From the NCBI GenBank assembly GCA_954871525.1, contig OX940872.1:11183180-11247179 (forward strand): a DNA stretch of 64,000 nt. The letters are read 5' to 3'. The notes under the pieces are model-generated. The model saw only the letters and a list, made by a program, of their open reading frames with translations. It did no database searches and was not told the DNA's origin. This document shows positions 9,842 to 51,243 of this stretch, one piece after another. Every line of letters starts with the position of its first letter. The stretch's first letter is position 1. Made by a program: the position numbers and the translations under genes. This stretch comes from Parietaria judaica (Eukaryota; Streptophyta; Magnoliopsida; Rosales; Urticaceae).

Positions 9842-9844
9842 AAC

Positions 9845-26179: not shown

Positions 26180-26990
26180 AATTTTATTGTTGTTTTCAAT
26201 TTATGGATAAATAGCGGTATGTATATATTATCTAGCGGTACCGATATCTGTAGGCAGAATGTACTCTCTGGATCTTTAAAATATAAGGTAAGGTTATCCT
26301 AGTATAATAAAGTAATTTTATTATTGTTTTCAATTTGTGGACAAAATATAGCGGTATGTATGTATTATCTAACGGTACCGATATCTGTAGGCATAATGTA
26401 CTCTCTGGATCTTTAAAATATAAGGTAAGGTTATCCCAATATAATAAAGTAATTTTATTATTGTTTTCAATTTTTGGACAAAATATAGAGGTATGTATAT
26501 ATTATCTAGCGGTACCGATATCTGTAGGCAGAATGTACTCTCTGGATCTTTAAAATATAAGGTAAGGTTATCCCAGTATAATAAAGTAATTTTATTATTG
26601 TTTTCAATTTGTGGACAAAATATAGCGGTATGTATATATTATATAGAGGTACCGCTATATGTAGGCAGAATGTACTATCTAGATCATTAAAATATAATGT
26701 AAGGTTATCCCAGTATGATAACGTAATTTTATTATTATTTTCAATTTGTGGACAAAATATAGCGGTATTAATGTCTTATGTACCGGTACCGAGATCTGTA
26801 GGCCGAATGTACTATATGAATCCTTAAAATATAAACTAAGATTAGCCACTGTAACCAAGTACCAAATTGTTGTTTTCAATTTTTGATAAATTATGCTCTA
26901 TGAATATCTTATGTAGCGGTACCGTAATCTGTAGGCCGAATTTAGTTCGTACTCTATTAATTCTTAAGTATAATATAAGCCTATAGCAGT
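26180..26990. repeat. 137-bp tandem repeat array, about 6 copies, carrying TAGCGGTA
   Basis: The key motif AGCGGTATGTATATATTAT (with variants) recurs at 26213, 26350, 26487, 26624 and 26761 (spacing 137 bp), with a more diverged copy near 26895. Each unit has two AGCGGTA-like motifs and GATCTGTAGGCNGAATGTA-like sequence. Copies decay toward the right. Confidence 0.9.
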
Positions 26991-27025
26991 TTAATTTAAT
27001 ATTGAATTATTTTTCCATTTGCAGG

Positions 27026-27203
27026 ATGAATGATTACCTTTTTATTGTCAGTCTTGGCGGAGAATGGAATTTCGATAGATTTCGTTACAAGTGGTGGTGA
27101 GAGGGAATAAGTGATACTGCAACTGCTTTAACCATTAAAAAGTCTGCTTTAAACAACATATTTGATTTGAAGAAGTTGTTGTATAACAAATTTGATATTG
27201 TCC
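27026..27203 (+). pseudogene. Possible MULE transposase N-terminal fragment
   Basis: A good acceptor (TTTCCATTTGCAG) precedes an ATG-led frame: MNDYLFIVSLGGEWNFDRF, one TGA, then EGISDTATALTIKKS. The 'FIVSLGGEW' start and spacing recall the N-terminus of MuDR-type transposases, but the match is weak. It stops where a piece of copia pol begins. The leader upstream is CT-rich (25925-26020). Confidence 0.35.
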
Positions 27204-27281
27204 GAGAAAATATTCAGGAGGCATCTGGAAAGTATGGGTCTGAAAGACATGGGTCATCTTCTTTAAGTACAAGTGGGAGAT
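27204..27281 (+). pseudogene. Copia pol 3' end fragment abutting the left LTR
   Basis: Identical by eye to the end of the RNase H region at 34698-34773, including the stop and the polypurine tract AAGTGGGAGA. It sits directly upstream of the left LTR, where flanking DNA would be expected. It therefore belongs to another, now mostly deleted, element unit. Confidence 0.85.
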
Positions 27282-30027
27282 TGTTGGACATATGTGTCCT
27301 TAAACAAGATATTTTATCCATTTGTAAAAGATTATGACAAGTCGTTGAATAAAGATGATGCTTATTATGATAATCTTATTATAGTTTCTGGTAGAGTAAA
27401 ATAGAATGTTTGATTCCTTAGTTCATGAAGGATGCAATTATGTTATTATTATCACAACAGAGTCAATGTGAGGAAGAATTAATAATCATAATAAATGAAC
27501 TTAAAATGTCCGTGACCTGATCAACTGGGTGGGAGCCCATTAATCGTATAAGGTCATTAATGTGACTAAGTGATAATCCTATTCTGGATTTTGTGTGTGT
27601 CACACTCACTAGAAGTGCATTAAGTATGAAGTGTCTTCATAATGGACTGGACCTGACTCAAACTCCGGAAGTTATCATATAAGACCGTCACTGATAACTT
27701 GGAGTTGAGTCACTAGTAGATGATCAAATGGATATTCGATCTAACTCCTGAGTGATCTTGAGTCCAAGCTGCTGGCTTGATTGTTCTTTGATTTAACCGT
27801 TAAAGAATACGAAATATTACTGTTGTTCCCAACACTATTATTTTGGGAACATGATAGTTAGCAGTAAGGGTAGCTTGGTCATAGACATGGGCATCACACA
27901 GCTCTCTTCAGAGTGATGATGATTCCCTTGATTGTCGGTGGTGAGAAGTGAGAGGTACCCGTGCGCAACTTATGAATCGAAAACCATAAGTGGGTTACTC
28001 ATAATATTACTGACTGAGTCAAGGATGAAAATGCAAGAGGGGCATAACGGTAGAAACCGCCTTCTCGTTTGTGAATCATCAAGTGAAAGATCAATAACCC
28101 GAATTTGATTGTATCAATGGACACCATGCTGTTATAAAGTGAATAATATATACCGTATCACTAAAGAGTGCAGCCTCGGGTCTATAGTGGAATCACTTCG
28201 AGGTTTGACGAACAACTAGCAGTTCGTTGGAGCTTAAGTGGTACGGGTCCATGGTCCCCAGGATAGCTCCGTAACGGATGATACGTACGTGATTAAAATA
28301 CATTCTGGATAATTTTTAATCATTTGGCTTGACTTATAAAACTGAAAAGTCTGTGGCAGACGTCAGATAGTTTTATCGTTAGCGTGGCAAAAGTACCATA
28401 TTTTGGTACACAAAATTAACTGATAAAAGAAAGTTAGAATTTAGATTTTCTATCAACACCATGTTGTTGGAAAATAAATTCTAAGAAACTTTTCTTTTTG
28501 AACCAAGTCATTTCGACTTACGGTTAGTGATTTATGGATTTCCTAAGTTTATGATCGGTTCGATAAACTTTGAAATTAAATCACGTGTCACGAATTTAAA
28601 TGATGGTGTGACACCATGACATTTTAATGTGTGATATTCAGATCAGGAATTATTGATATAATTTAATTATTTAGATTTAATAATTAATATCTTATTAATA
28701 ATTAATTAATAATTAATAGATTTATATTAATAAATAAAAATATATATTTATATATATTAATATGTGTAAATTCGAATTAGGGTTTGATATATGAAACCCT
28801 AGTTAAATTCGAATGGCATGATTTGGTATTTCCATATTTGCGGCATAAGTACCAAATGTTTTGGTATTTTAGCAAATCAATCAATATTATCTATTGGATC
28901 GGTTATGATTTAATATCAACCGTTGGATTAGGATATTGATAAATTCGAAATTAATGACTTGGTGACCAAGTTTTATTTTTTGAATTTGATTAATTAATTG
29001 TATCCGTAAGATCGGTCTAAGATTTAATCTTTACCGTCGGATTGAAAATTAATTAATTATATATATCTATATATATATTCGAATTATGGTTTAAGGATAA
29101 ATTCGAAATTGTTTTTAATAAATCTTTTTATTTGATTTTTATCCTAAACTAATTTGATCCATTAGATCGGTTTATAGATTTATCTCAACCATTGGATCTA
29201 GATAATGATAATTCGAATTATATATATATATATATATATATATGATAATTCGAATTTTATACTGATAAGAAGATAAGATTGGATTTTTGATTTATCTAAA
29301 TCTTTCTTATTTAATTAAATCCCTAATTAATTATATCCATTGGATTTAGATGAGATTAAATCTGGACCATTGGATTAAGATAATTAATTATATTTAATTA
29401 ATAAAATTCGAAAATAGGGAGGAAAATTCTCCAATTCGGTTACGGTTTTGAGCCTATAAATAGGAGGCTCATTCTACACATTTTTCACACCTTTCCCCAG
29501 AGAAAAATTCGAGCTCTCCCTCTTCCTCAGGGTCTGCGAATTTTCTCTCTGATCTCTTTCTTCTGGTTCGGCTTAGGAGACTATTTCTCCGGAAGCTTAA
29601 AAAGAACCATCAGTTAAGATTTTGCGACGGAGTCCTGCCGGCGAAGCTCACGCTTCGGTACGAGGATTCCAGGAGAATATCCTGGAAGATCACGGGAGTT
29701 TCCCTCAGCACCGGCAGAGCCCTGCCCAATTCAGAGCGCACAGCCGGAAATCGTCATACGAGGTACGGCCTTATGCATTAGGTTAATAAATGCAAACATT
29801 TACTGCTTTCTATTTATTTCCTATTTTGACTAGTTTATTAATAATGATTTATGAATATTAAATTACATAATATTTATCAGATCTTGGGATATGGTCATTA
29901 TCCGATATTCGGACTGTTGAACGGATAACAAGTTTTTCCGCTTTAAAATAATTTTTAAATGTTACCCGGACGGTTCGGAGGTATAACTCGTGATAATTAT
30001 ACGGATTCCGAGTCGTGATTTCCAACA
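27282..30027 (+). repeat. Left (5') LTR of copia element
   Basis: Starts TGTTGGACATATGTG and ends TTCCAACA. About 2.75 kb, long for copia. It contains several (TA)n runs, TATA at 29455 and a GC-richer U5 portion from about 29500. Confidence 0.9.
29455..29463 (+). promoter_or_regulatory. TATA box of left copia LTR
   Basis: TATAAATAG, followed about 45 nt later by CACACCTTTCCCCAGAG, the likely start region of R. Confidence 0.6.
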
Positions 30028-30029
30028 AT

Positions 30030-30042
30030 TGGTATCAGAGCC
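30030..30042 (+). other. Primer-binding site, initiator tRNA-Met type
   Basis: TGGTATCAGAGCC lies 2 nt after the LTR. This is the standard plant copia primer site. Confidence 0.9.
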
Positions 30043-30189
30043 ATGGTTCAAGGATAAATAATTACGTAATTTAATTATTGGGTTTAAAGATTGAATTATT
30101 TGATGAATAAATTAATAATTAAAATTGAAATTAATTTCTAGATATTTTAATATTAATTTAAAATTAGATTATTTCCCGACCCAAAAAAT

Positions 30190-30525
30190 CGGACCGGAAA
30201 AGTGGTCGGGCTGCTGGGCGCAGCCCAGCCCGTGGCAAGGGTTGACCAGGGGCTGCCGCTGCAGCCCCAGGGTCAAAACCCTAGGTGCCACGGGCCAGGC
30301 CCGTGGCAAAGCCCATGCCAGGGCGAGGCCCAGGGCGAAACCCTTACGGGTTGCCCTGGCGAGCAGCCCCTGGGTCTCGCGCACTGGCCTGCGGCCCACG
30401 CTGCTAGGCAGCGGAATGGGCCTGCGGGCCCACCGCAAAGCGGGCGCTGCCCTGGCCTTCCCGAAGGGCTGGGCGAGGCTTCTCCTAGGGACGTGGGCCC
30501 GGGCTTAGGCCCGGAGGGCCCACAT
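30190..30525. other. GC-rich island in copia leader
   Basis: About 335 bp of very GC-rich sequence (repeated GGGCC, GCCCGTGG, CCAGGG) sits in otherwise AT-rich leader. ORFs occur on both strands but have no domain and are an effect of base composition. It may fold into stable RNA structure. Confidence 0.7.
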
Positions 30526-31383
30526 ACATAATTTTAATTATGGGTCGGAATTCATTCCGACCCGGTTCCCTAGGAATAATTAAATATTAATTATTATTGA
30601 AATTAAACAATTATGAATTAAATTAATTATGATTAATTAATTGAAAAATAAAATATGGATGTTATTTATCGATAAATAACATTGACTTATTTTATATAAT
30701 TCATAAAATTAAATATGGATATTATTTAGTGAATAAATAATATTGTCTTATTTAATGATAAAATATGGATGATAATTCTTAGGAATGATATCATTGACTT
30801 ATTTTTAAAATTTCATGAATAATTATGTGGAACCATTGAATGAATTAATGATTATTCTTGAATGAATGGGAATCATTAAAATCTAATTATATATATTCAT
30901 CATAGATATAATTTGTTATAAACTATTTTCATAACCCGTAAACATAGTGTCTATGTTTGGATCATTATTAATATGTCATTTTAGGATAGATATAAATAAT
31001 AAAGAGTAAATGTAAAAGTGTTTATCTTGAGTCGGAAAAATTTCAACCGTACAATCTTGCCTAAGGAAGAGGGAAACAAAAGTGAGGCCGGTTCACCATC
31101 CACTTCTGGGTGACCGGTTAGGACCCCTCCCATCGACCTGGAGAGCGTACGAATTGATCTATCACTACCGACAAAATAATAAACACAATATTGGGGCTTA
31201 TTTAAATTACGTGTCGTAATAAATAAAGCCAAAATATAAACTTTTAATGTGTCATTAATAAATAGTTTATATATTAAGTTTTTATAACTTAGTAAATAAA
31301 AAAAACGTTATTTCCTAAAAACAATGGCAAGTATATAATAACTCAAAGGTCTCCATTATTACTGACACAAGGTCTGCTGACCA

Positions 31384-31729
31384 CACCGCCTCGAGTCACC
31401 CTAGTGTGTCCATTCCCTAAGGAAGGTGTGCTTCTGGAAGGTTTGACACCGTGATAGTTCCAAAAGAATATGGGGACGGAGGAATCTTGGAAATGGACCG
31501 CGAGTCACCCTAGTGTGACCATTCCCTAAGGACGATGTTTCCAAGAGGATCGCGAGAATTTAAAATAATGGGTTAAGCTTGCACGGAAGTTGGTGCTTCC
31601 CGACCGTCTATGGTGATAGTTAATAATCATAGAGAACTTGGTGGTTCTTGTTATGAATATTAATTAAGTTTAACCAAACTACACGGTTGATACCGCGAGT
31701 CACCCTAGAGTGACCATGCCACTAAGGAC
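31384..31729 (+). repeat. Three spaced copies of a ~38-bp leader repeat
   Basis: The core CGAGTCACCCTAGTGTG, then CCATTCCCTAAGGA, occurs at about 31391, 31500 and 31695 (last copy variant). The spacing is irregular (about 110 and 195 bp). A possible RNA structural or packaging element. Confidence 0.75.
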
Positions 31730-31898
31730 GGCAACGACGTGTACAGTCGGTTAAATTATCACGAAATAGTTAAAGGGTTTATTTAACGTTTTTCCCAGAA
31801 CATGTTTGCATCATGTAACTATTTCAAATAAAATATTTTTCTAAAAATTCTACCTGTAATAAAGTTTAATAAGTTTCTTTTTCAATGCCAGTCTAAAA

Positions 31899-32775
31899 AT
31901 GTCTAAAGATATTAATGTCTCGGATGATGAAAAAGATTCGGTCAACTCTGGTCCTCCATCTGAGTTTGAGCTACCGATTTTTGAAGAAGGCAGTGCTTGG
32001 TTCAAGTATGATAATGAATACGTGTTACTCAGTTTCTTATTAGACCAGTATCCAAAAAAAAATCAATCCTTCAAAGATTCGGTACTCAAAGCCTCGATGG
32101 GTGAAATTGAGAGACTAATGAAAAAGGTGAACAAAGTAACGGCTTTTGTCACTCAAGCAATGGCAAAAGATAACAAACGAAATACTGAATCGAAAGCTGA
32201 ACCAGGAAGAAAAGAAAGAAAAGTTGGTTTATCTGCAATGTGCTTCCAATGTGGAACAAGGAAAAGAGTGCGAGGTCAGCTGCGATGCAGACTGCACATG
32301 AGTTCACAAAAGGGTAAAACCTATTCTGAATTCGAAATTAGTTTTTTATTGGAGAGATTCAAATCTCAGATCCATAGATTAAAATTATAAACATTGCAAA
32401 CGTTTTTTTTTTATGACAGAAGTTGCTTCTGCTAAAAAGAAAAACGGAGATGGAGCTTTATGCATTGAATGCTGGCTCAAACCAAGAGCAAAAGGGCACA
32501 CAATGTGTCGAGAGCATCTACGGGCTTGGAGAGGTAATGACTCTTCTGTCAACCCCGAAATTAGTTTTTATTGGAGAGATTCAAATCTCAGATCCATAGA
32601 TTAAAATACTAATGCTTGTTCATTTTCTTTTCAAGATTCAGCAGGAGCTCTGTTGATGAAAACTCAGCAGGAAACGAAAGCGGCTAGTACTCGAGTGTCT
32701 CGAAGAAGGAAGCATGCTTTAAGTTTTTTTTTATTCGATTTAAGTTTATTGTTATCATTATTTTTGCATTGTTAA
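31899..32775 (+). CDS. Unrecognised three-exon ORF with two C-x2-C-x11-C-x2-H motifs, inside copia element
   Basis: Exon 1 is 31899-32313, exon 2 is 32420-32533 and exon 3 is 32636-32775. Both introns are phase 1 with GT-AG ends and T-rich acceptors. The product is 222 residues. The N-terminus is acidic (MSKDINVSDDEKDS), the middle has a helical stretch, and the rest is Lys/Arg-rich. Exon 1 ends with CFQCGTRKRVRGQLRCRLH and exon 2 carries CIECWLKPRAKGHTMCREH, two possible zinc-binding modules of the same spacing. Exon 2 with its flanking intron looks like a tandem duplication of the end of exon 1. It occupies the place of gag/protease/integrase. I recognise no family. It could be a captured host gene or a novel element-encoded nucleic-acid-binding protein. 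Confidence 0.5.
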
Positions 32776-32994
32776 AACCTCGATTTATTTTTGGATATTG
32801 ATTGCACGAAATGATTCTTAATTAATAAAGGTTTTATATGTTTCGAATTATTTTGCAATATCCAGATAAATATAGTGACAGTTATTTTTGTTCCATCTAT
32901 AGTCTTTAATCACTCTAATTGATTTATTTAGATCAAATATCATTTTTAATCATGATGATTAATAGAGAATGAAATTAGAGGAAATTATTCACAA

Positions 32995-34758
32995 TTGGGA
33001 TTTTGTGACAAAGTCACAACAATGATACCAGTGTCTGTTATCAAAGAGAGTGCGGAAACCACGGTCCCAAATCAGAACCAAGGGGTACTCAGACGTAGTG
33101 GGAGGTTCAAAAGACCTGTTGAGCGCTACGAGCACACCCAGTTGGAATTTCACCTAGCTGTCATAGACACTAGTGTTGAAGATCCCATAGGCTACAAGCA
33201 AGCTATGGTTGATCCTAATAAGGGAGAATGACAGGAAGCCATGAACCAAGAAATAGAATCAATGGATTCTAATTAAGTCTGGGAACTTGTAGACTTACCG
33301 GATGGTTTCAAAACCATTGGCTGTAAGTGGGTATACAAGCGAAAGAGAGGAGTGGACGGGAAGGTTGAAACCTTCAAGGCTAGACTAGTGGCAAAGGGTT
33401 TTACCCAGAGGGAAGGTATTGATTTCGATGAGACCTTTGCTCCAGTCGCTAAGTACAAGTCCATCCGGATTCTCATGGCCATAGCCTGTAGTCTCAATTA
33501 CGAGATTTGGCAGATGGACGTCAAAACCGCCTTCCTGAACGGGTACATTGACGAAAACATCTATATGGACCAACCAGAAGGGTTCGTGCAACAGGGTCAA
33601 GAAGGGAAAGTTTGCAGATTACTTAAATCCATCTATGGATTGAAGCAAGCTTCCAGATCCTGGAATCTGAGGTTTGATGAAACCATCAAAACCTATGGAT
33701 TCATTCAAAATGTCACTGAGGCCTGCATCTATAAACTCAATGACGAAACCGTGGAAATTTTTCTTGCTCTGTACGTCGACGATATTCTTCTCATTGGAAA
33801 CAGTGTGAAGAAATTATCGGACGTAAAAGCGTGGCTATCTACGCAGTTCCAAATGAAGGACATGGGAGAAGCCAGTTATGTTCTTGGGATCCGTATTTTC
33901 AGGGATCGCAACAACAGGCTTCTGGCCTTATCGCAAGCAACTTACATTGATAAGGTGCTTGAACGTTTTGCAATGGCAAACTCCAAGGGAGGTAATTTAC
34001 CGACCAGACATGGAGTGTTCCTCAGAAGGAAACAATGCCCAACTTCTCCGGAAGAGCAAGATGTGATGAGGCGAATACCCTATGCTTCAGCAGTGGGAAG
34101 TTTGATGTACGCTATGCAGTGTACTAGGCCAGACATCTGTTACGCTGTGGGAATTGTTAGCAGATACCAATCCAACCCTGGTATGGCTCACTGGACAGCA
34201 GTGAAGAACATTCTCAAGTATCTTCGGAGAACGAGAAACTATATGTTAGTGTTTTCAGGATTAGAACTGAATGCACTAGGATACACTGATTCAGACTTTA
34301 AGTCTGATAGAGACGCGAGAAAATCGACGTCAGGAGCAGTGTACACCCTTGCTGGTGGAGCGATATTCTGGAGAAGCGTAAAGCAATCATGTATCGAATA
34401 TTCCACAATGGAAGCTTAATACGTGGCAGCTTGTGAGGCAGCCAAAGAATCAGTTTGGCTCAAGAATTTCTACATAGAGCTGGGAGTTGTTCCAGATGTA
34501 GATGGGCCCCAAACACTATACTGTGACAACAGTGGTGCGGTGGCAAATTCTAAAGAGCCCAGAGACCATAACAAGGCGAAACATATAGAACGCAAATACC
34601 ATCTCATTAGAGAAATAGTGCGTCGTGGCGACGTGAAGGTTGTGAAAATAGCCTCGGAAGACAATCTGGCTGATCCATTCACCAAGACATTGCCAGAGAA
34701 AATATTCAGGAGGCATCTGGAAAGTATGGGTCTGAAAGACATGGGTCATCTTCTTTAA
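32995..34758 (+). pseudogene. Copia RT-RNase H with three in-frame stops
   Basis: One frame runs throughout. A linker (GVLRRSGRFKRPVERY) leads to RT, with KARLVAKGFTQREGIDF, MDVKTAFLNGYIDE, SIYGLKQASRSW and the catalytic YVDD in LALYVDDILLIG. RNase H follows, with GYTDSDFKSDRDARKSTSG, CDNSGAVANSKEP and ADPFTK. Stops interrupt it at TGA 33229-33231, TAA 33274-33276 and TAA 34417-34419. The last two sit where Gln (CAA) is expected from the copia consensus. No integrase, protease or gag precedes it. It ends at TAA 34756-34758, just before the polypurine tract. Confidence 0.92.
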
Positions 34759-34762
34759 GTAC

Positions 34763-34772
34763 AAGTGGGAGA
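34763..34772 (+). other. Polypurine tract
   Basis: AAGTGGGAGA directly before the right LTR; it primes plus-strand DNA synthesis in this class of element. Confidence 0.75.
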
Positions 34773-34773
34773 T

Positions 34774-37532
34774 TGTTGGACATATGTGTCCTTAAACAAG
34801 ATATTTTATCCATTTGTAAAAGATTATGACAAGTCGTTGAATAAAGATGATGCTTATTATGATAATCTTATTATAGTTTCTGGTAGAGTAAAATAGAATG
34901 TTTGATTCCTTAGTTCATGAAGGATGCAATTATGTTATTATTATCACAACAGAGTCAATGTGAGGAAGAATTAATAATCATAATAAATGAACTTAAAATG
35001 TCCGTGACCTGATCAACTGGGTGGGAGCCCATTAATCGTATAAGGTCATTAATGTGACTAAGTGATAGTCCTATTCTGGATTTTGTGTGTGTCACACTCA
35101 CTAGAAGTGCATTAAGTATGAAGAGTCTTCATACTGGACTGGACCTGACTCAAACTCCGGAAGTTATCATATAAGACCGTCACTGATAACTTGGAGTTGA
35201 GTCACTAGTAGATGATCAAATGGATATTCGATCTAAGTCCTGAGTGATCTTGAGTCCAAGCTGCTGGCTTGATTGTTCTTTGATTTAACCGTTAAAGAAT
35301 ACGAAATATTACCGTTGTTCCCAACACTATTATTTTGGGAACATGATAGTCAGCAGTAAGGGTAGCTTGGTCATAGACATGGGCATCACACAGCTCTCTT
35401 CAGAGTGATGATGATTCCCTTGATTGTCGGTGGTGAGAAGTGAGAGGTACCCGTGCGCAACTTATGAATCGAAAACCATAAGTGGGTTACTCATAATATT
35501 ACTGACTGAGTCAAGGATGAAAATGCAAGAGGGGCATAACGGTAGAAACCGCCTTCTCGTTTGTGAATCATCAAGTGAAAGATCAATAACCCGAATTTGA
35601 TTGTATCAAAGGACACCGTGCTGTTATAAAGGGAATAATATATACCGTATCACTAAAGAGTGCAGCCTCGGGTCTATAGTGGAATCACTTCGAGGTTTGA
35701 CGAACAACTAGCAGTTCGTTGGAGCTTAAGTGGTACGGGTCCATGGTCCCCAGGATAGCTCCGTAACGGATGATACGTACGTGATTAAAATACATTCTGG
35801 ATAATGTTTAATCATTTGGCTTGACTTATAAAACTGAAAAGTCTGTGGCAGACGTCAGATAGTTTTATCGTTAGCGTGGCAAAAGTACCATATTTTGGTA
35901 CACAAAATTAACTGATAAAAGAAAGTTAGAATTTAGATTTTCTATCAGCACCATGTTGTTGGAAAATAAATTCTAAGCAACTTTTCTTTTTGAACCAAGT
36001 CATTTCAACTTACGGTTAGTGGTTTATGGATTTTCTAAGTTTATGATCGGTTCGATAAACTTTGAAATTAAATCACGTGTCACGAATTTAAATGATTGTG
36101 TGACACCATGACATTTTAATGTGTGATATTGAGATCAGGAATTATTGATATAATTTAATTATTTGGATTTAATTATTAATATCTTATTAATAATTAATTA
36201 ATAATTAATAGATTTATATTAATAAATAAAAATATATATTTATATATATTAATATGTGTAAATTCGAATTAGGGTTTGATATATGAAACCCTAGTTAAGT
36301 TCGAATGGCATGATTATGTATTTCTATATTTGCGGCATAAGTACCAAATGTTTTAGTATTTTAGCAAATCACTAAAATCAATATTATCCATTGGATCGGT
36401 TATGATTTAATATCAACCGTTGGATTAGGATATTGATAAATTCGAAATTAATGACTTGGTGACCAAGTTTTATTTTTCGAATTTGATTAATTAATTGTAT
36501 CCGTAAGATCGGTCTAAGATTTAATCTTTACCGTCGGATTGAAAATTAATTAATTATATATATCTATATATATATATATATATTCGAATTATGGTTTAAG
36601 GATAAATTCGAAATTGTTTTTAATAAATCTTTTTATTTGATTTTTATCCTAAACTAATTTGATCCATTAGATCGGTTTATAGATTTATCTCAACCGTTGG
36701 ATCTAGATAATGATAATTCGAATTATATATATATATATATATATATATGATAATTCGAATTTTATACTGATAAGAAGATAAGATTGGATTTTTGATTTAT
36801 CTAAATCTTTCTTATTTAATTAAATCCCTAATTAATTATATCCATTGGATTTAGATGAGATTAAATCTGGACCATTGGATTAAGATAATTAATTATATTT
36901 AATTAATAAAATTCGAAAATAGGGAGGAAAATTCTCCAATTCGGTTACGGTTTTGAGCCTATAAATAGGAGGCTCATTCTACACATTTTTCACACCTTTC
37001 CCCAGAGAAAAATTTGAGCTCTCCCTCTTCCTCAGGGTCTGCGAATTTTCTCTCTGATCTTTTTCTTCTGGTTCGGCTTAGGAGACTATTTCTCCGGAAG
37101 CTTAAAAAGAACCATCAGTTAAGATTTTGCGACGGAGTCCTGCCGGCGAAGCCCACGCTTCGGTACGAGGATTCTAGGAGAATATCCTGGAAGATCACGG
37201 GAGTTTCCCTCAGCACCGGCGGAGCCCTGCCCGATTCAGAGCGCGCAGCCGGAAATCGTCATACGAGGTACGGCCTTATGCATTAGGTTAATAAATGCAA
37301 ACATTTACTGCTTTCTATTTATTTCCTATTATGACTAGTTTATTAATAATGATTTATGAATATTAAATTACATAATATTTATCAGATCTTGGGATATGGT
37401 CATTATCCGATATTCGGACCGTTGAACGGATAACAAGTTTTTCCGCTTTAAAATAATTTTTAAATGTTACCCGGCTGGTTCGGAGGTATAACTCGTGATA
37501 ATTTTACGGAATCCGAATCGTGATTTTCAACA
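34774..37532 (+). repeat. Right (3') LTR of copia element
   Basis: Same ends and order as the left LTR with few visible differences (for example a longer (TA)n near 36560). TATAAATAG lies at 36960-36968. Confidence 0.9.
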
Positions 37533-38628
37533 GGACCGTGGTATAGCGGTATCGTATAATGTTAAGGTATTTGAATTTTGGATTTGAGTCGTTTTTATTT
37601 TCTTGTTGCATTTGTCTTGGCGAGCGTCAGTTGTGGAGGAAACTGAACGGCCGTATCTTGAACTTACATTAGTTCATTCGGGCTAGTAGTATTTTAATTC
37701 GGGTTATTAATTACACTTGTTAAATTTATTCCAGCAGCATTAATGTTATTAACACTTATACCGCTATTGTGATTTTGTAGAATATCGGGTAAATGACAAA
37801 ATGATGTAGAAATAAAAAAAATAATCAAATATCAATAGCGTTGTGTCATAATAATATAATTACCGCTATTTTACAATTTGTATAACACAAGAATATTATT
37901 TGTATCGTTGGAATACAAATAGATACATAAATACAATAATCTGAAAAAGAAGTATAGGTCTGAGATCTGGCATATTCTAATTACCGCTATTTTACAATCC
38001 GAAACACCGTTGTCACAGCTAATAATTTTGATAAAAGTAGAGGCCAGAACAACGTTCTCACAACTAATGCAATCTCTCTATGCAAAGCTTATTCTGACCA
38101 AAGTGTTTCAGAAACCTATCCAAAGTCTTGCGATTTCGGTCCTGCTCATACCATCTATTTTTTTTGGTAGCATAATGGCTCAGTTAAGTCGTTCACTAAT
38201 ATACAAGAGACAAATAAACAAGGAAGTTAGAATTAAGATAATATTTTTAAAAAAAGTGAGAATAGATAAATGGTTTAAAGAAATCTTACGACGGTGACGG
38301 AGACGGGGGCGCATCGACAAACATCCGCTTTAGGTGTTTTTTTTTTCTTTCTGATTGGAAAGCCTTAGGTGTTTGAGTTCAAACATGTTAGACCCTAGAT
38401 TTGGGTTACAGAAAAATCTAGATTTATATGAGGGTTCCCAAAGGGGTATGGAGTATGGATTAGGGTTTCACAAAGTGGTAATGTAAAATGGCGAATTGAG
38501 ATTGAACATTTAGGTTTTCCTCGTTTCCATTTTATAGTATTAGTGAGGGTATATAGGTATTTACACGAACATTGGAAGTAAGAGGAATTATTTCGCGGTA
38601 TATGAGAAACACTAACGGTTAAACGGAT
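37533..38628. other. Spacer with scattered TAGCGGTA motifs
   Basis: No recognised gene. AGCGGTA or its complement occurs near 37545, 37863 and 37981. A 95-codon ORF at 38010-38297 has a hydrophobic middle but no known domain and I do not call it a gene. The region is probably part of the element that the copia interrupted. Confidence 0.4.
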
Positions 38629-40340
38629 ACCTCTCTATAGGTGTTTAGTGACCACCTCTAGTAGGTAACATCTAGCAGTATTGCTTCGAGTGTCTAGCGG
38701 CAGATACGTAAATTAATTAGCGGTAAGTAGTTTTGATGGAGAAATTAAGGTTACGGAACCTTATTTAATAGTGTTAAAACCATTTAAGTGGAAATAAGAA
38801 AGAATTGATGGATCAAAACATGCATTGCTTCGTATACGTGCACGAGTGATATAGACTTGTTCTATGATCCAACGAACTAATCATACTCATTATCCGCCTA
38901 TTATCCATCTCACTTACCAAAAGTTGTCACGGTGAACCTAATAATGCACATTGACGGCAAAATGAATCCATATGATAGAAACACTGAACTTCCACATTCC
39001 TACTATCATCCCGATACGATACCTCTAGGTGTTTAGTGACCACCTCTAGTAGGTAACATCTAGCGGTATTGCTTCGGGTGTCTAGCGGCGGATACGTAAA
39101 TTAATTAGCAGTAAGTAGTTTTGATGGAGAAATTAAGGTTACCGAACCTTATTTAATAGTGTTAAACCCTTTTAAGTGGAAATAAGAAAGAATTGATGGA
39201 TCAACACATGCATTGCTTCGCATACGTGCACGAGTGATATATACATGTTCTATGATCCAAAACTAGCTAGTTCTTTTATCATACTCATTATCTGCCTATA
39301 TCCATCTCACTTACCAATAGTTGTCACGGTGAACCTAATAAGGCACATTGACGGCAAAATGAATCCATATGATAAAAACACTGAACTTCCACATTCCTAC
39401 TATCATCCCGCTACGATACCTCTAGGTGTTTAGTGACCACCTCTAGTAGGTAACATCTAGCGGTATTGCTTCGGGTGTCTAGCGGCGGATACGTAAATTA
39501 ATTAGCGGTAAGTAGTTTTGATGGAGAAGTTAAGGTTACCGAACCTTATTTAATAGTGTTAAACCCTTTTAAGTGGAAATAAGAAAGAATTGATGGATCA
39601 AAACATGCATTGCTTCGCATACGTGCATGAGTGATATATACATGTTCTATGATCCAAAACTAGCTAGTTCTTTTTATCATACTCATTATCCGCCTATTAT
39701 CCATCTCACTTACCAATAGTTGTCAAGGTGAACCTAATAAGGCACATTGACGGCAAAATGAATCCATATGATAGAAACACTGAACTTCCACATTCCTACT
39801 ATCATCCCGCTACGATACCTCTAGGTGTTTAGTTACCACCTCTAGTAGGTAACATCTAGCGGTATTGCTTCGGGTGTCTAGCGGCGGATACGTAAATTAA
39901 TTAGCGGTAAGTAGTTTTGATGGAGAAATTAAGGTTACCGAACCTTATTTAATAGTGTTAAACCCTTATAAGTGGAAATAAGAAAGAATTGATGGATCAA
40001 AACATGCATTGCTTCGTATACGTGCACGAGTGATATAGACTTGTTCTATGATCCAAAACTAGCTAGTTCTTTTATCATACTCATTATCCGTCTATTATCC
40101 ATCTCACTTACCAATAGTTGTCACGGTGAACCTAATAAGGCACATTGATGGCAAAATGAATCCATATGATAGAAACACTGAACTTCCCCACTCCTACTAT
40201 CATCCCGCTACGATACCTTTAGGTGTTTAGTGACCACCTCTAGTAGGTAACATCTAGCGGTATTGCTTCGGGTGTCTAGCGGCGGATGCGTAAATTAATT
40301 AGCGGTAAGTAGTTTTGATGGAGAAATTAATACAAGGGAT
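38629..40340. repeat. ~398-bp tandem repeat array, 4-5 copies, carrying TAGCGGTA
   Basis: ACCTCTAGGTGTTTAGTGAC recurs at about 38629 (variant), 39021, 39418, 39817 and 40215, a period of 392-399 bp. Each unit contains CATCTAGCGGTATTGCTTCG, CTAGCGGCGGATACG and AATTAGCGGTAAGTAG. Inner copies are highly alike by eye; the last is truncated near 40335. Confidence 0.95.
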
Positions 40341-40567
40341 ATATCGGTAATAACAATTTGACTAGAGGTAGTTATATTATAGGTAATATTTAGAACAGTA
40401 TCACGTAATACTAGCGGGAATCAAAACATACTAGTCTAAAACATACTACTACTAGTCCAAAATAAAAATATGCTAGTAAAAAAAATATGATCGAAAAGAA
40501 AAAACAGTCCAAAAAAAGCATAGATTTATCCCGATGAGGAAGTAGTTTCTTCAGTATCCGCTGGTGA

Positions 40568-42145
40568 CTATGGAGGTGGCGGTGGCGGTGGCATCGGCAA
40601 CGGCAACGGATAGTACGGTCGCTGGACGATCTTTTCACCACTTTCCAATGTCTGCACGAGCTCCTCCAACATGGGGTGTTGAGGAACAAAGGGATGATCG
40701 AGGGAGTGCGGCAACTAAGCTTCCATATCTGTAGGAATTAGTACAGTCAATTGTCCCTGAAAATTATAGAGTATTGTTATTTTCCCAAATCATAGTTGAT
40801 ATTGATAAATTTTCAATAGAGCAAACTACCCTCGGATCCGCCCCATGCAAAATAGAGTTTTTGATTGACAGGCGGTGAAGTTCGATATTCCCGACTTGAC
40901 GCGTTTTCCAATTGCACATACGAGGTGCCTCCTCGGACTCCCTTCGGTCCGCTAAGACATGCGCCACACCAGGCAAACACTTGTATGCCAAAATCTACAT
41001 GAATTTTAACATGTTAAATTCGCACATAAGATGTCGATTGTAAATAAATAACTTTGAACCATTACATATATACCACAAGCGGATGTATGAACCCCGGAAC
41101 TGTCATCATCGGGATCTCTCGTCCTTGTCTAGGGACGTTTTTTTGCAACTCCTTAACTGCTCTAATCCGGATATTCCGTACCGATCCTAGGAATGACTCT
41201 CGACCCCAAGGATATTGAGCGAATACGTCAAGGTCCTCCACCAAGCGCAAGTAGTCCACATGCAAAATAGTTTCACCAGGATGGGGTAACAACACCCCGA
41301 AGACGAAGCTGAGGCATGCCAACCTTCTCCTGTCCTCGTTGCTCACAACCGGATAAAGATGACTGTTATCTAATTTTTCTAGCACCATATCGAATGTGAC
41401 ATTTGGGCCTGCATTTGGCCACATCCGTTGCTTGAATGAGGCATTCTTTTCTGGTTGTCCAACGATAGCTTCAATGCTCGGCAGAGGTGAACAATTCAAC
41501 CCGGTGATGATGGCAAATTCTCGAACCCCGTATCGTAATGGAACATTGTTCACCAACATCCACACCTCACATGGCTCTTGATGTGTAGTGCTTCTCTAAA
41601 TCGAATTCCAAAACAGTTGGGGAGAAAATTTTTAGTGAAAATTTGTAGTGCATGGGGACATCTAATAGAGGTCCAAACTGTGTGCTCCGAAACCACTCAG
41701 TCTCTCCAACGTTCAGGTTCTCCTTAATCATATTCGTGATCGTGGAGAAGTTCGCTTCTTCGGTGACGACCTCACAGTCGTACAACTCATCCGGCGCTAG
41801 GATATTATATAGCTATTTCCGCGAAAAAACAAATCATAACTTGATTAGTTTCTAGAAATTATACATAGCGGTAATAAGGTATATATGGAGCAACGAAAAA
41901 CCGTTATCGAAAATATAAAACGCGGTGTAAATAGATATCTAGCGGTGAACTTGTAGCGGTATTATGTGAACGGAGCGTGAATATAGAGCGGTATTGCTCT
42001 AACAGGTACAGAACCAACCCTACACTCGTTCTTCTTCGTCAACCACACAGTATAGTATATTGCGTGTAAAATAAGTAAACCCTAACATCGTTACCATTCG
42101 AAACAAAGTACGGGTTTCACAAACAATAAACGATTACCTCCATTT
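40568..42145 (-). pseudogene. DUF1985-domain gene, copy 1 (decaying)
   Basis: On minus: a tiny first exon ending ATG GAG (42145-42140). Exon 2 starts near 41808 (YNILAPDELYDCEVVTEE, ENLNVGETEWFRSTQFGPLLD). Then comes the DUF1985 core, 41577-41062 (VWMLVNNVPLRYGVREFAII, LRLVEDLDVFAQYPWGRESF). A further exon near 40995-40810 reads YKCLPGVAHVLADRRESEEA, and a last exon ends in a Pro-rich tail at 40568. The link between the 41785-41600 part and the core needs a frameshift or a very short intron, and a TAG at 40717-40715 interrupts the tail. DUF1985 proteins are known from plant Mutator-like elements (with Ulp1 domains in Kaonashi). No Ulp1 domain is present here. Confidence 0.7.
41860..41995. repeat. 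TAGCGGT motif cluster upstream of DUF1985 copy 1
   Basis: TAGCGGT or close variants at about 41866, 41940, 41954 and 41985, lying in the first intron or 5' region of copy 1. Confidence 0.65.
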
Positions 42146-42329
42146 ATGTGGATTTCGGGAGGATGAAGACGATGATCGCCGGAAAAGCAAAGAAAAGAAA
42201 CCCTTGTTGCAACGAGGAGAGTACGATGGAAAGAGAAAAACGTTTCGGAGTTGGAAGAGAGAATCTTGGGAATAGAAAGCGTCGAAGTGCATTAATCACA
42301 AGAATAAGTGATATTATGTTTAAAAAAAA

Positions 42330-42849
42330 GGGTTAATCCCGAAAAAAGTATCAATACTTTCAAAAAGTGGACCAATAAATACCAATTCTTTTTATTGCCC
42401 GGACAAAGTTCCAATTCTTTAGTTTTGTGTCCCTATAGGTACCTTCGTAAAAAAAATTGTCCTCCAACGTTACTCACGCCACGTAAAAGTTTTGGTTTTG
42501 TATTCCAATAATTTTTTTACCCGAATAAAGTTCCAATTCTCTTGTTTTGTCTCCTCATATCACTTTCGTGAAATTCAAAACCATTGATTATGCCGTTTTC
42601 GGCGTTGAATTAAAAAGTAATTTTTCTCCCTTTTAAGTATATATCCACGATTATCTTTGATCGTCCAACTTTCCGATGGCTAATTTACTCCGGAAACGGT
42701 GACAATTTTAACAATGGAGGACGATTTTTTTCGGAGGTACCTATAGGGACACAAAACTAAAGAATTGGAACTTTGTCCGGGCAATAAAAAGAATTGGTAT
42801 TTATTGGTCCACTTTTTAAAAGTATTGGTACTTTTGCCGGGATTAACCC
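42330..42849. mobile_element. MITE/foldback element, 520 bp
   Basis: It begins GGGTTAATCCCG and ends with the inverse. Arms of about 150 bp pair closely: CCAATTCTTTTTATTGCCCG at about 42378 matches the complement of a stretch at about 42780. The centre is unpaired. It lies between the two DUF1985 copies. No gene. Confidence 0.8.
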
Positions 42850-42984
42850 TAAAAAACATAAAAGAAAATGAGGGTAATAAAAATAAACCGCCCACCGCTC
42901 AACTACCAAAGGGTAAACTAGTAATTTTGATAAACGAACAGCTAGCGGGAGTGATTTAAATTTACTAACGGGAACACTATTAGT

Positions 42985-43175
42985 ATAGCGCTAAGAGCGA
43001 TGTAAATAGCTTGTAGTAAGTCCAAGTTTAGTAACTAGCGGTTAGAGCAAGTTTAGTAACTAGTGGTAAGAGCAAGAATAATGGCTAGCGGTAAGAGCAA
43101 ATTTAGTAACTAGCGGTAAGAGCAAGTTTAGTAACTAGCTGGAAAAATATTAGTATAGCGGTAATCACAACTTTA
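42985..43175. repeat. Short-period array of TAGCGGTAAGAGCAAGTTTA units
   Basis: CTAGCGGTAAGAGCAAGTTTAGTAA-like units repeat about six times at roughly 30-40 bp spacing (near 43035, 43065, 43085, 43115, 43135 and 43155). It sits downstream of DUF1985 copy 2, between the two gene copies. Confidence 0.8.
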
Positions 43176-43393
43176 ATGATTAATGGGAGTGTTACATAGA
43201 GCGGAAATGTTTTCTAATACAACTAAAATCTGAGTTCCAAAATTACCATTGTTAAATTGACATAGTTGTCCAAAATATTACAACAGATAGATACAAACTC
43301 ATATATTCTTTTATCCTAGTCCAAAATATTAAAACATACTAAAACATGGCGTATCTAAACCTCATCGTCATCCTCGTTCTCTTTCTCCTCTTT

Positions 43394-44777
43394 TTAGTTT
43401 TTCATCTCCATCCTATTGTCCTCCTCCTCCTTAAAAAAATCTTCCAACTCAACTTCAGGGTACGGTACTCCTTGTGGCGGCAGCGGTATGTGATGCCAAT
43501 TTTCTACTTCCGTCCGCAGTAGTATACTCAATTGTCCCTAAAAAATTATAAAGTTAGAATTGATACATCTATTCTTTACTTCCATAAATCAAAATGGTTT
43601 CGCTATCAATATATATCAACCAACAGTCGGATCACCATCCCCTTAATCGGGATTTCCATTATCAAGGATACTTGGTTTGATATGCCCTAGATTCGTTGCC
43701 CATTTGCAGATACGCGGTCTTGAATATCCCTCACGACGGACCGCCTCGGCTCTTTGCACACCCGGCAAACACTCGTACTCTAAAACCTGCAAGAAAATAA
43801 ACATGTCATAGTTTGATATATATGAAGGCCACTGTAATACCGCTAACTAAGTAAAATATTTCACATATACCTGAAGTGGGAAGAGGAACCCCCGAATGGT
43901 TATCGTGGGAACTATAGGCACACCAGGATTATTTTGAGCCACATCAAGATTATCCTCAGGCATATTTTCTGATAGTTCCAGGGCTGTCATCTTCACGAGA
44001 TTCTTTAATGCATACGTGTATGAGCTCCGGCCCCAAGGATATTGTACGAAGGAGTTGAGGTCCTCCACGAACGCCCGAACTGGGTCGGGGATTCTGGACC
44101 CGGATAACAGAGTGAGACCGAACATTAAGCGGACCTCGAGTGCGTTGAGTGGGACTTCTCCTTCTGTAGGAAGGAAGGGACATTCGTTCTCTAACCAACG
44201 GGGTACAATGGGGGACGTATTCCCTATGTGGGTATTCATCATTGCAATTTGTAAACATATCTGGAATGTTTTCACATATGAGACCAATGATGATCTGAAA
44301 CTCGTCAATGGAGTATCGTAGTGGAACATGGTTCACCGTCATCCACATATCCCCATGCCTTTGTTTTGCCAAGATTCTGCAAAACAAGTTTCTGATCACC
44401 CTTTCAAAAAATTGAAAGAAAGTGGGGACATCCTAGAGAGGCCCAAATTGGGTAGTCCGAAACCACTGAAGCTCTTTTGCGGTCAGTCGTGACTTGATCA
44501 GATCAGTAATCGGACGGAAGTTCCCTTCATTGGTCTCCAGTCGAAAGTGGTGCAAATCATTTTCTTCGATAAAACACCTCCAAGCATTTGAAGGCTAATA
44601 AACAAATCATAATTACATCAGTGTAAACCCTACTCTCGTACAAAACAGATGGTAAACAACAGAACCAACCCTACTCTCGTTCTACTTCGTAAACAACAGT
44701 ATAAACCCTAACATCATTACGATACAAACAGTCGAAACAAAGCATAGGTTTCTCAAAAAATAAATGGGTACCTCCAT
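43394..44777 (-). pseudogene. DUF1985-domain gene, copy 2 (decaying)
   Basis: Same layout as copy 1 on minus: first exon ending ATG GAG (44777-44772), exon 2 near 44594 (SNAWRCFIEENDLHHF, LTAKELQWFRTTQFGPL). A TAG at the codon after GPL breaks it (near 44437). The core, 44399-43850, has MWMTVNHVPLRYSIDEF, FVEDLNSFVQYPWGRSSY and NNPGVPIVPTITIRGF. Frameshifts lie within the core (the frame changes near 44230). A next exon (YECLPGVQRAEAVRRE) ends in TAA near 43650, and a last exon ends MEMKN at 43394. Upstream flanks of both copies are also alike (42150-42310 versus 44785-45015), so the whole gene was duplicated in tandem. Confidence 0.7.
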
Positions 44778-45025
44778 TTGTGTGGCTCTGGTGAGGATGA
44801 AGGATGATCGGAGAAACTCGTCGCTGAAAGGATCGTCCTGTGCCAGGAAAGCAAACAGAAGAAAGCCGAGTTGCGCGAAGTCGTTCTCGAACCAAAATGA
44901 ACAGAACAGATGGACGAGGAGTATGATGGAGAAGAGAAAACGTTCGGAGTCTAAAGAGAGGATCTTGGAAATAGAAAGCGTCGAAATGAAGAAGAAAGGA
45001 GAATATGTTTGAAAAAGAAAATGTA

Positions 45026-45449
45026 AAAAATAATAAATGGATCAACTGCCAAAGGGCAAAGTAGTAATTTCACAAAATAGTGGATAAAAAATAAATGAGA
45101 ACTCGCAATTTGTATTTATCAGAGCAAAAAATAAATGTAAGAGAAATAAAATGTTATAACGAGGGTAGGGAGCGAAACGACATCTCTAATGAGATCTTTT
45201 AGCCAATTCTTTGGCAAAGTGAACACCCAAAAAATACCCGCCGGAGTTTAACAAACAAGTCCCTGCTTTTTCACTTTTGTGTTTCCGTTTTTGAAAATTG
45301 AAAAAAAGGAAAATTGAATTTCCGTTTTCAAAATTACTCACCGCTCAGATCTGTTCAACTACAGTCTTCGCCATTCTCTCTCTCTCTCTGACTGAGTGCG
45401 ACTCTCTGGAGATAAGGACCTTCCATGTCCGATTGATCTTCGCTCGACA
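45026..45449 (+). promoter_or_regulatory. Promoter and 5' leader of the ADIP-like gene
   Basis: Single-copy-looking sequence between the repeat-rich region and the first ATG at 45450. It contains a short CT microsatellite (45371-45389) typical of plant leaders. No clear TATA box was identified. Confidence 0.4.
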
Positions 45450-48400: not shown

Positions 48401-48910
48401 CATTATTATTTTTTAAATTTGTTTTTACAAATAATCTGGTATGAAATTCGTGTTTCTAAATTTGATTTTTAAGTTTTACACAGCTAAAAAATAAAGTCAG
48501 TAGCAATCTTATCGACATAATTTACTGATCTAGTAAACTAAAATAAATGATATATAATTTGATATATATTTATATATAATTTTGTTTTTCAGGCATCTAT
48601 AATGTCTAAACATCTGCCGAAATCGGAGAGGCCGGCCAGGTGATTGATTGTTGTTAATGGCATTTGCGATGTAAGTAGATATTCTGCTTATTATATATCA
48701 ATGCAAGACTCTGAATGACCGTTTGGAATCTAGCAGGGACGGGATTGCCTCTTCACCTTCCGAGGTAAAACCGATCATTTTACGAACTTTTCGTGTATCG
48801 GGTCTTCATTCTAAAACATATTTAAGAATCTTAAGCACAACTTTCCTTATCTGTAGATTGCTAGACTGACATATTTTCTTAAACTTATTTTTCAGGGGGT
48901 ATGCAATTAA
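45450..48910 (+). CDS. ADIP/SSX2IP-like coiled-coil protein (afadin/alpha-actinin-binding family)
   Basis: Exons by splice sites and frame: 45450-45482, 45570-45598, 45730-45841, 45939-46036, 46208-46304, 46395-46484, 46597-46659, 46774-46848, 47011-47076, 47156-47233, 47472-47582, 47659-47736, 48218-48337, 48593-48639, 48737-48764 and 48896-48910. This gives 379 residues. The N-terminal domain (EYVFADVENLEHCLKYLNQ, LVTFGFPASLDL) matches the ADIP family signature, followed by long coiled coils (LLSDITRLEAKVERLDGQ and on). Animal ADIP/SSX2IP works at centrosomes and junctions; the plant role is less certain, probably cytoskeletal. All introns keep frame without stops. The last two exons are uncertain: no splicing after 48639 gives AGG-TGA and 366 residues, and skipping the 28-nt exon opens a different C-terminus to 49004. 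Confidence 0.82.
47775..48151. mobile_element. MITE in intron 12 of the ADIP-like gene
   Basis: The left end GGGCCCGTTTGGCACAGCTT and the inverted right end GGGTGCGTTTGGCACAACTT match at all but three positions. 377 bp. The flanking ATT on both sides may be a 3-bp duplication, which would suit a Harbinger/Tourist type. Inner GGTGTTTGG motifs also form an inverted pair. Confidence 0.75.
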
Positions 48911-51243
48911 ATCAACGAAACCGACGGAACCAAGAAAATTTGGCCCAACTGATGTGTTAAAATCGTCATCACGACGATATAGCGAGCGTGTAAGCGTCTG
49001 TTAACCTTCGGATTGTACAAGTTTAGTAGGAAATAATAACCTGAACTGTTAATGTAATTATTTAACTAGCTTCTCTTAGTATGATCATTAAATGGTTTTT
49101 CTTGTCACTTTCTTTTTCTATTTTCATTTCTGGCTAATTGTGAACTATTTATGTTCAGATGGCATCTCCACAAGCATATACTTATTTTAAACATAAAAAC
49201 AAGAAGAATACACTTATTTTGGGTATGTTATAACTTACTATATAAAAAAATGTTCTTATTTTGCTTAAAAAAACTGCAAGAAATCAAGTATTGAGTAACA
49301 TTTGCAGTATAAATGTACACTAAGTTATTTTTAATTAGAACATATTGTATAACAATCTCATACTTTGCCATGCAAGAAAAAAAAATTGTTATATTGCTGG
49401 AAAGGGCGGCCTATTCTTTTTTTTTTTTTTTTTTTTTCATGTCGTGGTGTATATTTCAAGTATTGCTCCAATACCCTAAGATTTATATTCTATGACAAAA
49501 ATTATTATATGCCATCACATCTTAGGTTTATTTTTATTTTATATATTTACCTTTGAAATAAATCGACGTGCTCAATTTGGTGTAAAGTGTAAACGGTCAG
49601 AATTTGGAAACTTGGTGTACTTCCATGAATACAATGATGAGGTAGGTATGAATTATGATTGATGATTTATCATTAACAATTATTGACCATCTAATGATAA
49701 TCAACCGCTTTAAACGCTAATAGATAATCATCTTATAGCTATACCAATTTTTTGCTCTAGGAGAAATAATTGCAGTACAAGTGCCCAAACTTGGTACGTT
49801 TCTAATTTTTTAAGCGACAATAGTACTTAAAAGGCTATAAAATAGTGTCTAATACCCCAATTCGCTCCATTTTCCATTCAAAATCATTACACAAGAGACA
49901 CGCTTACTGATCCGGATAGCGGTATTGGACTGTCGAGCCTTATCGGGCATAGCGGGATTACTTTGACTAACGGGAACGGAGTAACTAGCGGTATTGGGCT
50001 GACTAGCGGTAATGAAGCTCGTGAGCATGGCGGTAATGATCATTATACTAGACCTGGTAGTCAATGGTCCGGGTATCACTTACATCTATGATTAAGCTCG
50101 GAAAAATTAACTATTTTACGCATTTATCTGAACTTGATACAAAGATTAGGCACTTAGATGCAAATACTCTTCATAGTTGTAACAGGGTCAATAATTGAAG
50201 AAAAACACAACATTATAGCTGTGTTTGTATATCATGAGCTGGCATTGATGCTTCTAAATAGCCCCCATAGTATTTCTTTTTTCTTCTTTTTTTTTTTATA
50301 AGAAATTTCTTTTTTCTTCTGGGAATATATAGAAGAATCCACTAAAGCTTACCTAAAATAAATTAGGGGTAGGCAAGTGAGAAATGAATTATGTTTATTA
50401 ACTTGTGTTGCAAGTCACTCAACTACAATTTTCTCATCATGTAATATTGCTTTCAAGTATCTTTTCAAACACTTAGGAGGATGTTTTTCTTCCACGGGTA
50501 ACCAAACATATATTACAAATTGGAATATATCGGTGTAGAAATCGTTAGGTATACCGGTCACTCCTCACAATGAAAACCTAAATATTCAGAAGCAGAGAGC
50601 AATAGACTCTGGAGAAGACAGATCCACGAACAGTTTTATTCACAAGCCGATTTCATGTTCCGGGTTTCGAGCTACATTTGTGAATCACCAAACAAAAAAT
50701 GAAAATTTACATTTTCTGTGGAACCAATAAATCTTAAGAACTTCCCCGGAAGCTTTTTCGAACCCGGAATTCAATAATCTGTCCAAAGCTGCACGCCATA
50801 TCCCCTTCCAGCAAAATATAAACATATTTCATATTTCCTGCAAAGATTAGCATTCCGGTTTTCGTGAATTCACTCATAACGGCTCCTCTCACGAGATTCC
50901 AGTACTATGCTATGACCCAAAATGCAAAGAACCACAACGGTGAAAATCATTACCTTTTTCCTATATCGGATTTACTAGAATGTATGCCGTGGCACTTGGC
51001 CTCAACTTGAAAGAAGTAGAAATGGAACTGCACATAGAAATGCTTTGATCAGAATTCTATATAATATTTACGGCAAAAGAAAAGAAAAGAACGAAGTCTC
51101 GAGATTAATTGAAAAATCGCCTTTCTGTAAATTTAGATATAATCATTTTTGACATAGTGAAAAGCTTAAAGCAGTAATTTGATGATCTTATCGAATTGGA
51201 GTCGGAATCAAAATCAAAACTGATGAAAAACTCAATCATAACC
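48911..51243. other. Intergenic region between convergent host genes
   Basis: No gene is recognised. It holds an alternative exon of the ADIP-like gene (to 49004), a T(22)-like tract at 49418, a TAGCGGTA motif cluster (49914-50035), and presumably the 3' UTRs of both convergent genes at its ends. Confidence 0.45.
49914..50035. repeat. Outlying TAGCGGTA motif cluster
   Basis: ATAGCGGTATTGG, CTAGCGGTATTGG, CTAGCGGTAATG and ATGGCGGTAATG occur in about 120 bp, the same heptamer as the arrays near the DUF1985 genes 7-10 kb away. Confidence 0.7.

Follow-up and report, generated by a model that had tools for sequence, protein, structure and literature searches.

A decayed VANDAL/Kaonashi-like Mutator element in Parietaria judaica and a short motif shared by DUF1985-bearing transposons and a Copia retrotransposon family

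The 64-kb stretch of Parietaria judaica DNA analyzed here (contig OX940872.1, positions 11,183,180 to 11,247,179; hereafter the window) contains, at 25.8-45.2 kb, one decayed Mutator-like element (MULE) without long terminal inverted repeats (non-TIR), VANDAL/Kaonashi-like in kind, split by a Copia retrotransposon and deprived of most of its transposase. The element carries two genes for DUF1985 proteins related to VANC21, an Arabidopsis anti-silencing protein, and non-coding arrays of an 8-bp word, TAGCGGTA. We consider it likely that this is an anti-silencing MULE of the VANC type, with a motif unlike the two known VANC motifs, and that its DUF1985 protein binds TAGCGGTA and removes silencing; membership of the shared protein family was tested, and the VANC-like mode of working is what we infer.

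Anatomy of the element and its motif arrays

Exact copies of TAGCGGTA number 29 in the window, counting both strands, against a mean of 1.02 (maximum 5) in 100 dinucleotide shuffles, and 26 of the 29 lie inside the degraded MULE. Even with every array reduced to a single count, it is the top 8-mer of chosen non-coding segments (15 against 0.11 expected). The original prediction had it dominating arrays at 26.2-27.0, 38.6-40.3, 41.9, 43.0 and 49.9 kb, and so it does, but the single module up to 50 kb that was proposed does not hold: the 49.9-kb cluster, tried as a part of the MULE and rejected, lies 4.7 kb outside it in a copy of another dispersed repeat family.

The window matches both ends, the spacer and the DUF1985 parts of whole relatives, and 25.8-45.2 kb is therefore read as one related element. 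In alignment, positions 25820-27208 correspond to the right end of a whole element, E3 (72-76%), and 45127-45212 to its left end (85%). The terminus at 45.2 kb ends in ...CCAATTCTTTGG; that at 25.8 kb is disrupted. Sibling loci L024, L027 and L077 show 88-95% identity over the main aligned stretches within 38.6-45.2 kb; the 397-bp array recurs in L024 on C10 and L027 on C21. On C10, L024 and L077 together make up a sibling with two DUF1985 genes, of which gene B has an open frame. Preserved in the window element are the two DUF1985 genes and the first ~55 codons of a MULE transposase. The transposase start suspected at 27.0 kb proved real, the 3' part of 27026-27193 aligning to the N-terminus of the E3 transposase (64% over 33 aa, 2.8e-7, tblastn).

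The features are as follows, LTR standing for long terminal repeat, MITE for miniature inverted-repeat transposable element and TRF for Tandem Repeats Finder.

25820..45222, no strand assigned: degraded non-TIR MULE with nested Copia (alignment to the E3 ends, siblings)
26180..26941, plus strand: 137-bp tandem array with TAGCGGTA, upstream of the transposase (TRF, 5.6 copies); 8 exact TAGCGGTA from 26212 to 26921
27026..27193, plus strand: MULE transposase start with one in-frame stop, cut by the Copia (tblastn with the E3 transposase; remainder read directly)
27194..37532, plus strand: nested Copia retrotransposon interrupting the MULE (RVT_2, 1.3e-76; LTR copies 98% alike)
37544..37989, no strand assigned: four dispersed TAGCGGTA copies (exact motif count)
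38638..40330, plus strand: 397-bp tandem array with TAGCGG cores 22-23 bp apart (TRF, 4.3 copies; also in L024 and L027)
40570..42143, minus strand: DUF1985 gene A, approximate by-eye model with an ATGGAG exon, an intron, the DUF1985 exon and two short exons
41866..41999, plus strand: motif cluster within intron 1 of gene A (motif count, sequence)
42329..42850, no strand assigned: MITE-like insertion with 126-bp inverted arms (empty site in siblings L024 and L027)
43016..43163, plus strand: 25-bp-period motif cluster between genes B and A (TRF at 43016-43139; motifs at 43086, 43111 and 43156)
43394..44777, minus strand: DUF1985 gene B, approximate by-eye model, its first exon ATGGAG followed by GT as in gene A; frame broken
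49909..50040, plus strand: motif cluster beyond the end of the element, one copy of a ~132-bp dispersed repeat (genome search)

DUF1985 genes and whole relatives

The two predicted DUF1985 genes are both supported by PF09331, gene A at 1.3e-27 (41062-41595, the frame being broken near 41595) and gene B at 4.6e-8 with a second frame at 0.0021. Each of the three gene A copies seen in clade I has a defect: a frame break or stop in the window and in L027, and a translated frame departing from the expected N-terminus in L024. Gene B of sibling L077 retains an open 216-aa frame (PF09331, 1.3e-20). In sequence, the DUF1985 region of gene A matches VANC21 at 2.3e-13 (PDB 9lnj, a structure that includes the target DNA), and VANC21 is the only strong match of its predicted fold; a protein search gave just two matches among 937 candidates. 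Sequence and predicted fold thus place these DUF1985 proteins in the same family as VANC21, in agreement with the kinship first proposed. That VANC proteins carry DUF1985, an assumption of the original prediction, is also stated in PMC5735166.

Gene A is ~40% identical to Kaonashi-type DUF1985. Six-frame Pfam scans of 37.5-45.3 kb returned DUF1985 and a few sub-threshold chance matches, and neither Ulp1 (Peptidase_C48) nor DUF287 was found in this part of the window element. Arabidopsis VANC proteins have DUF287 alongside DUF1985, but DUF287 is not taken here as a defining criterion for a VANC-type MULE; such domains have reportedly been gained and lost among VANC systems.

The relatives E3, E1 and E6 are whole elements of 11.3-12.1 kb with perfect 9-bp target duplications, no long terminal inverted repeat and 36-40 motifs each. 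On one strand of E3 a DUF1985 exon comes first from the left, then a low-complexity stretch of acidic/basic character, then a Peptidase_C48 stretch (6.8e-7), while the opposite strand encodes a MULE transposase (DBD_Tnp_Mut 7e-11, SWIM 3.1e-8); from their order and strand, the DUF1985 and Peptidase_C48 stretches would form one gene. Among the three, the Pfam scan covered E3, to which the Ulp1 statement applies, and the DUF1985 and transposase of E1 and E6 align to those of E3. A MULE transposase shares its element with DUF1985 in E3 and in a further element, F19, the window retaining the N-terminal start only. The DUF1985 frame is open in E3 (locus L039) and F19 (locus L017). None of the 40 motifs of E3 falls in its listed exons; instead they spread through introns of its DUF1985 gene and across its central part, and are not confined to the ends.

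Apart from these elements, locus L037 (C4:7960559) holds a divergent DUF1985 gene without the motif, at best ~25% identical to the others read. This gene and the hit at C4:7959327, as well as the neighboring pairs C1:10723786/10725024, C4:37117460/37125718 and C1:50136427/50150708, have no stops in the match. The three further pairs are grouped with L037 by coordinates and profile range only, and the group possibly represents domesticated host genes.

Pairing of motif and DUF1985 across the genome

The 538.7-Mb genome yielded at least 150 DUF1985 hits above the cut-off (957 candidates, 150 scored), of which the best 30 loci were read for the motif with 1.5 kb on each side, the other 120 being used by coordinate only. 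These 30 loci, which are not independent (15 belong to the Kaonashi clade and 8 to the F19 clade), contain 255 copies of TAGCGGTA, and 28 of them are positive; in the same loci the totals for eight control words are 5, 0, 0, 7, 0, 3, 1 and 5. Excluding the locus of the window itself leaves 249 copies in 29 loci, 27 of them positive. Genome-wide the word occurs 16,219 times and its backwards form 14,075 times, a ratio of 1.15, and its density beside the 30 DUF1985 genes is ~83 times the genome average. The pairing of arrays with DUF1985 genes that had been put forward as a check was therefore found, in 28 of 30 loci and in three whole MULEs that combine both within 9-bp duplications.

Proximity on the larger scale was also compared with shifted controls. 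Within 20 kb of a motif pair lay 10 of 20 DUF1985 hits on C1 and 10 of 17 on C3 (first 35 Mb), against shifted means of 0.55 and 0.49; the C3 control reached 10 in one of 2,000 or more shifts. None of the 20 hits on C1 was within 2 kb of a motif pair, and two of the nearest clusters, those by C1:9204834 and C3:17361011, have the spacer of a Copia-type array by eye. In three DUF1985 loci with none or one copy of TAGCGGTA (L009, L037, L038), no other motif stood out. The core TAGCGGT(A/T) is the commonest form in four DUF1985 clades, namely those of gene A, the F19 type, the Kaonashi type and L015/L038, the last with just five exact copies in two loci. The new VANDAL-like family with a motif of its own that was originally envisaged is thus upheld in that the motif differs from those of VANC21 and VANC6, but not in its privacy, because diverged DUF1985 clades share TAGCGGTA.

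As a control, the best 30 MULE transposase loci by PF03108, a set that probably includes MULE-derived host genes given its identical-scoring pairs with long open frames, were examined, and 29 had no TAGCGGTA. A listed DUF1985 hit stands no more than 20 kb from 20 of the 150 PF03108 hits, where shifted controls give 2.0, and 19 of these 20 are convergent. The sole positive control locus, L075, has six copies and a transposase 62-83% identical to that of F19. Since it was picked out by its transposase, and since motifs stand directly upstream of the transposase in five elements (window, E3, E1, E6 and F19), the arrays might be binding sites of the MULE transposase, like the subterminal repeats of other DNA transposons. 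The motifs nevertheless run through DUF1985-gene introns and the middle of E3 rather than its ends only, and arrays are also present in a Copia LTR, where no MULE transposase is required; we regard this explanation as quite improbable.

The arrangement of the motifs bears on whether the arrays have any function. TAGCGGTA recurs in arrays of 63-, 137-, 196-, 359- and 397-bp units, often at a 20-23 bp spacing, and in several of differing unit the neighboring motifs are separated by 20-22 bp. Helical periodicity is reportedly a property of VANC motifs. Pooled spacing periodicity was dropped because one array with a 5-bp step dominated it, and array-by-array spacings were used instead. The arrays could be functionless products of replication slippage sharing the word through common descent only, as might be suggested by the homology of the window's 137-bp array to the 121-bp one in E3 (72-77%) and by motif columns that are no better kept than their neighbors in several comparisons. 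Slippage would, however, have to account for the same 8-bp word in arrays of differing unit and in a different transposon class, and for the retention of whole motifs between families, which amounts to 21 of 31 when counted from the window and to 11 of 24 the other way round, compared with about 20% (16-26%) of other 8-mers. We give slippage very little credence. CpG retention, considered as a sign of hypomethylation, was uninformative, with observed/expected ratios of 1.03-1.13 in every computed set.

Several observations weigh against a VANC-type anti-silencing element. Both DUF1985 genes of the window are frame-broken, two of the 30 DUF1985 loci have no motif and one has a single copy, and the motif also occurs in elements without a nearby DUF1985 gene (Copia LTRs and the repeat family of the 49.9-kb cluster). 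Other spacings exist as well (11-12, 18, 23-25 and 30-36 bp), column conservation between families exceeds background only as seen from the window (0.88-1.00 against 0.76-0.82) and is about equal to it in the reverse direction (0.77-0.80 against 0.77-0.79), and the motif columns of E1 and E6, at 0.88, fall below their background of 0.92. Whole motifs nevertheless outlast other 8-mers in each of these comparisons, which are not mutually independent. Finally, the five elements hold just 1-2 copies each of the motifs known for VANC21 and VANC6, close to chance (for the window element 1 and 2, the expectation being 0.6 and 0.5), and in the 30 DUF1985 loci they number 4 against 2.7 and 12 against 4.1 expected. 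Motifs differ between VANDAL families, however, and these low counts therefore separate the element from those two systems and not from the kind.

Motif carriers outside the element and comparison with known systems

Of the first 100 places of the paired motif pattern, 32 have the spacer of a 63-bp array (by-eye count). In L002, L003, L004 and L007 this array lies within a ~700-940 bp repeat beginning TGTTGGAATAAA, which ends in AACA in L002, L003 and L004 and is flanked in L003 by a 5-bp duplication, ATATG. A purine-rich tract precedes the repeat in L002, together with open reading frames (ORFs) interpreted as Copia RNase H despite the lack of a Pfam match, and Copia gag follows in L004 (PF14223, 6.5e-36); same-strand pairs, such as C3:910318-911120 with 915583-916353, delimit elements of ~6 kb (793 candidates in the genome search, 40 scored). 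The 63-bp array thus sits in the U3 of a Copia LTR family, with motifs 20-23 bp apart.

The repeat represented at 49.9 kb was counted at 38 further places (40 of 106 candidates scored), including seven same-strand neighbor pairs 4.7-5.9 kb apart, and none of the 38 is within 20 kb of any of the 150 listed DUF1985 hits. A first guess that this ~132-bp repeat is a short LTR was rejected: its end with a tRNA-Met primer site had no matches, and the 201 bp behind one copy contain no such site. The original prediction was to be refuted if arrays occurred widely without DUF1985 genes; arrays with no DUF1985 gene beside them do exist in these two carriers, which counts in part against it.

These carriers leave standing the main rival explanation, in which TAGCGGTA is a host transcription-factor site gathered by several kinds of transposon as a promoter or enhancer and the DUF1985 proteins do not bind it. 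In L002 and L004 the last motif of the Copia array is followed, after ~90 bp, by a TATA box, the fetched surroundings of both yielding no DUF1985 match, and the ~132-bp repeat places the motif away from listed DUF1985 genes. The GCGGTAA part of the motif may resemble the GT-2 trihelix box, a likeness that the papers listed by a literature search did not confirm. The strong bias toward DUF1985-bearing MULEs, including their introns and gene-to-gene spaces, speaks against a host factor, as do the 29 of 30 other MULE loci that lack the motif and a genome-wide count just 1.15 times that of the backwards control, and we judge this explanation unlikely.

The remaining sequence of the window has contents of its own. 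In the nested Copia, 27194-30027 and 34686-37532 are 98% identical, a purine tract is followed by the LTR start TGTTGGAC, and there are no copies of TAGCGGTA (27194-37532); a copy of the pol 3' end directly before the left LTR (27194-27281) points to a tandem or recombined insertion. Elsewhere are long minus-strand ORFs of 1130 and 845 aa, Gypsy pol- and gag-looking by eye (3943-9873), a hAT transposase with a 641-aa open frame (14246-16171; Dimer_Tnp_hAT, 5.8e-22) and a putative plant transposon protein (18199-19092; Transposase_32, 9.8e-20).

Under the anti-silencing interpretation, the element would represent a degraded version of an autonomous non-TIR MULE, VANDAL/Kaonashi in kind, whose better-kept relatives encode a MULE transposase facing one or two VANC-related DUF1985 proteins. 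TAGCGGTA is probably the binding site of the DUF1985 protein, which would most likely bind it in introns, intergenic spaces and the region upstream of the transposase, often in arrays at 20-22 bp, or two helical turns. Binding could then clear the host's silencing marks off the element itself and off other motif-bearing copies, implying a DUF1985-driven loss of DNA methylation and action in trans on other elements. More tentatively, TAGCGGTA may be a shared genome-wide address, a single word read by DUF1985 proteins from several MULE families, some with Ulp1 and some lacking it; the Copia LTR retrotransposon, having gained phased arrays of the word immediately before its LTR promoter, would then free-ride on anti-silencing proteins of DNA transposons. 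If the LTR arrays respond to a DUF1985 protein, anti-silencing would be a public good exploitable by other transposons, and the P. judaica genome, with one motif, one protein family and two target classes, offers a ready test. The new motif-protein pair could also help to work out recognition from the VANC21-DNA structure and be of use in sequence-directed epigenome editing.

Anti-silencing MULEs as a kind are already known, because eudicots are reported to have diversified VANC systems, some with Ulp1, that act on specific motifs of their own elements (PMC13317346); the present element shares with them the DUF1985 system, accompanied by Ulp1 in E3. A motif common to several clades and present in a retrotransposon promoter looks new, and no claim is made that TAGCGGTA is absent from print. 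The closest parallel for the Copia LTR is AT9TSD1 (PMC5735166), a non-VANDAL repeat with VANC6 motifs that loses methylation when VANC6 is expressed: in both cases an unrelated element bears the motif of a DUF1985 system, the carrier here being an LTR retrotransposon with arrays in its U3. With Kaonashi KI/KIU (PMC6117577, PMC2528002), E3, E1 and E6 share a DUF1985 gene facing the transposase in a non-TIR MULE, and E3 also the Peptidase_C48; the window element differs in that Ulp1 was not found in it, and motif arrays are described here. VANDAL21 and VANDAL6 (PMC5735166, PMC10398659) are likewise non-TIR MULEs with a VANC21-homologous DUF1985 protein and a short motif in non-coding tandem arrays. 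They differ in the motif, YAGTATTAY or AGTTGTMC in place of TAGCGGTA, in DUF287, which was not found here, and in the two DUF1985 genes of the window element and its C10 sibling. The specificity of VANC21 and VANC6, which read different motifs, is thought to limit host damage (PMC5735166), whereas in P. judaica one motif extends across diverged families.

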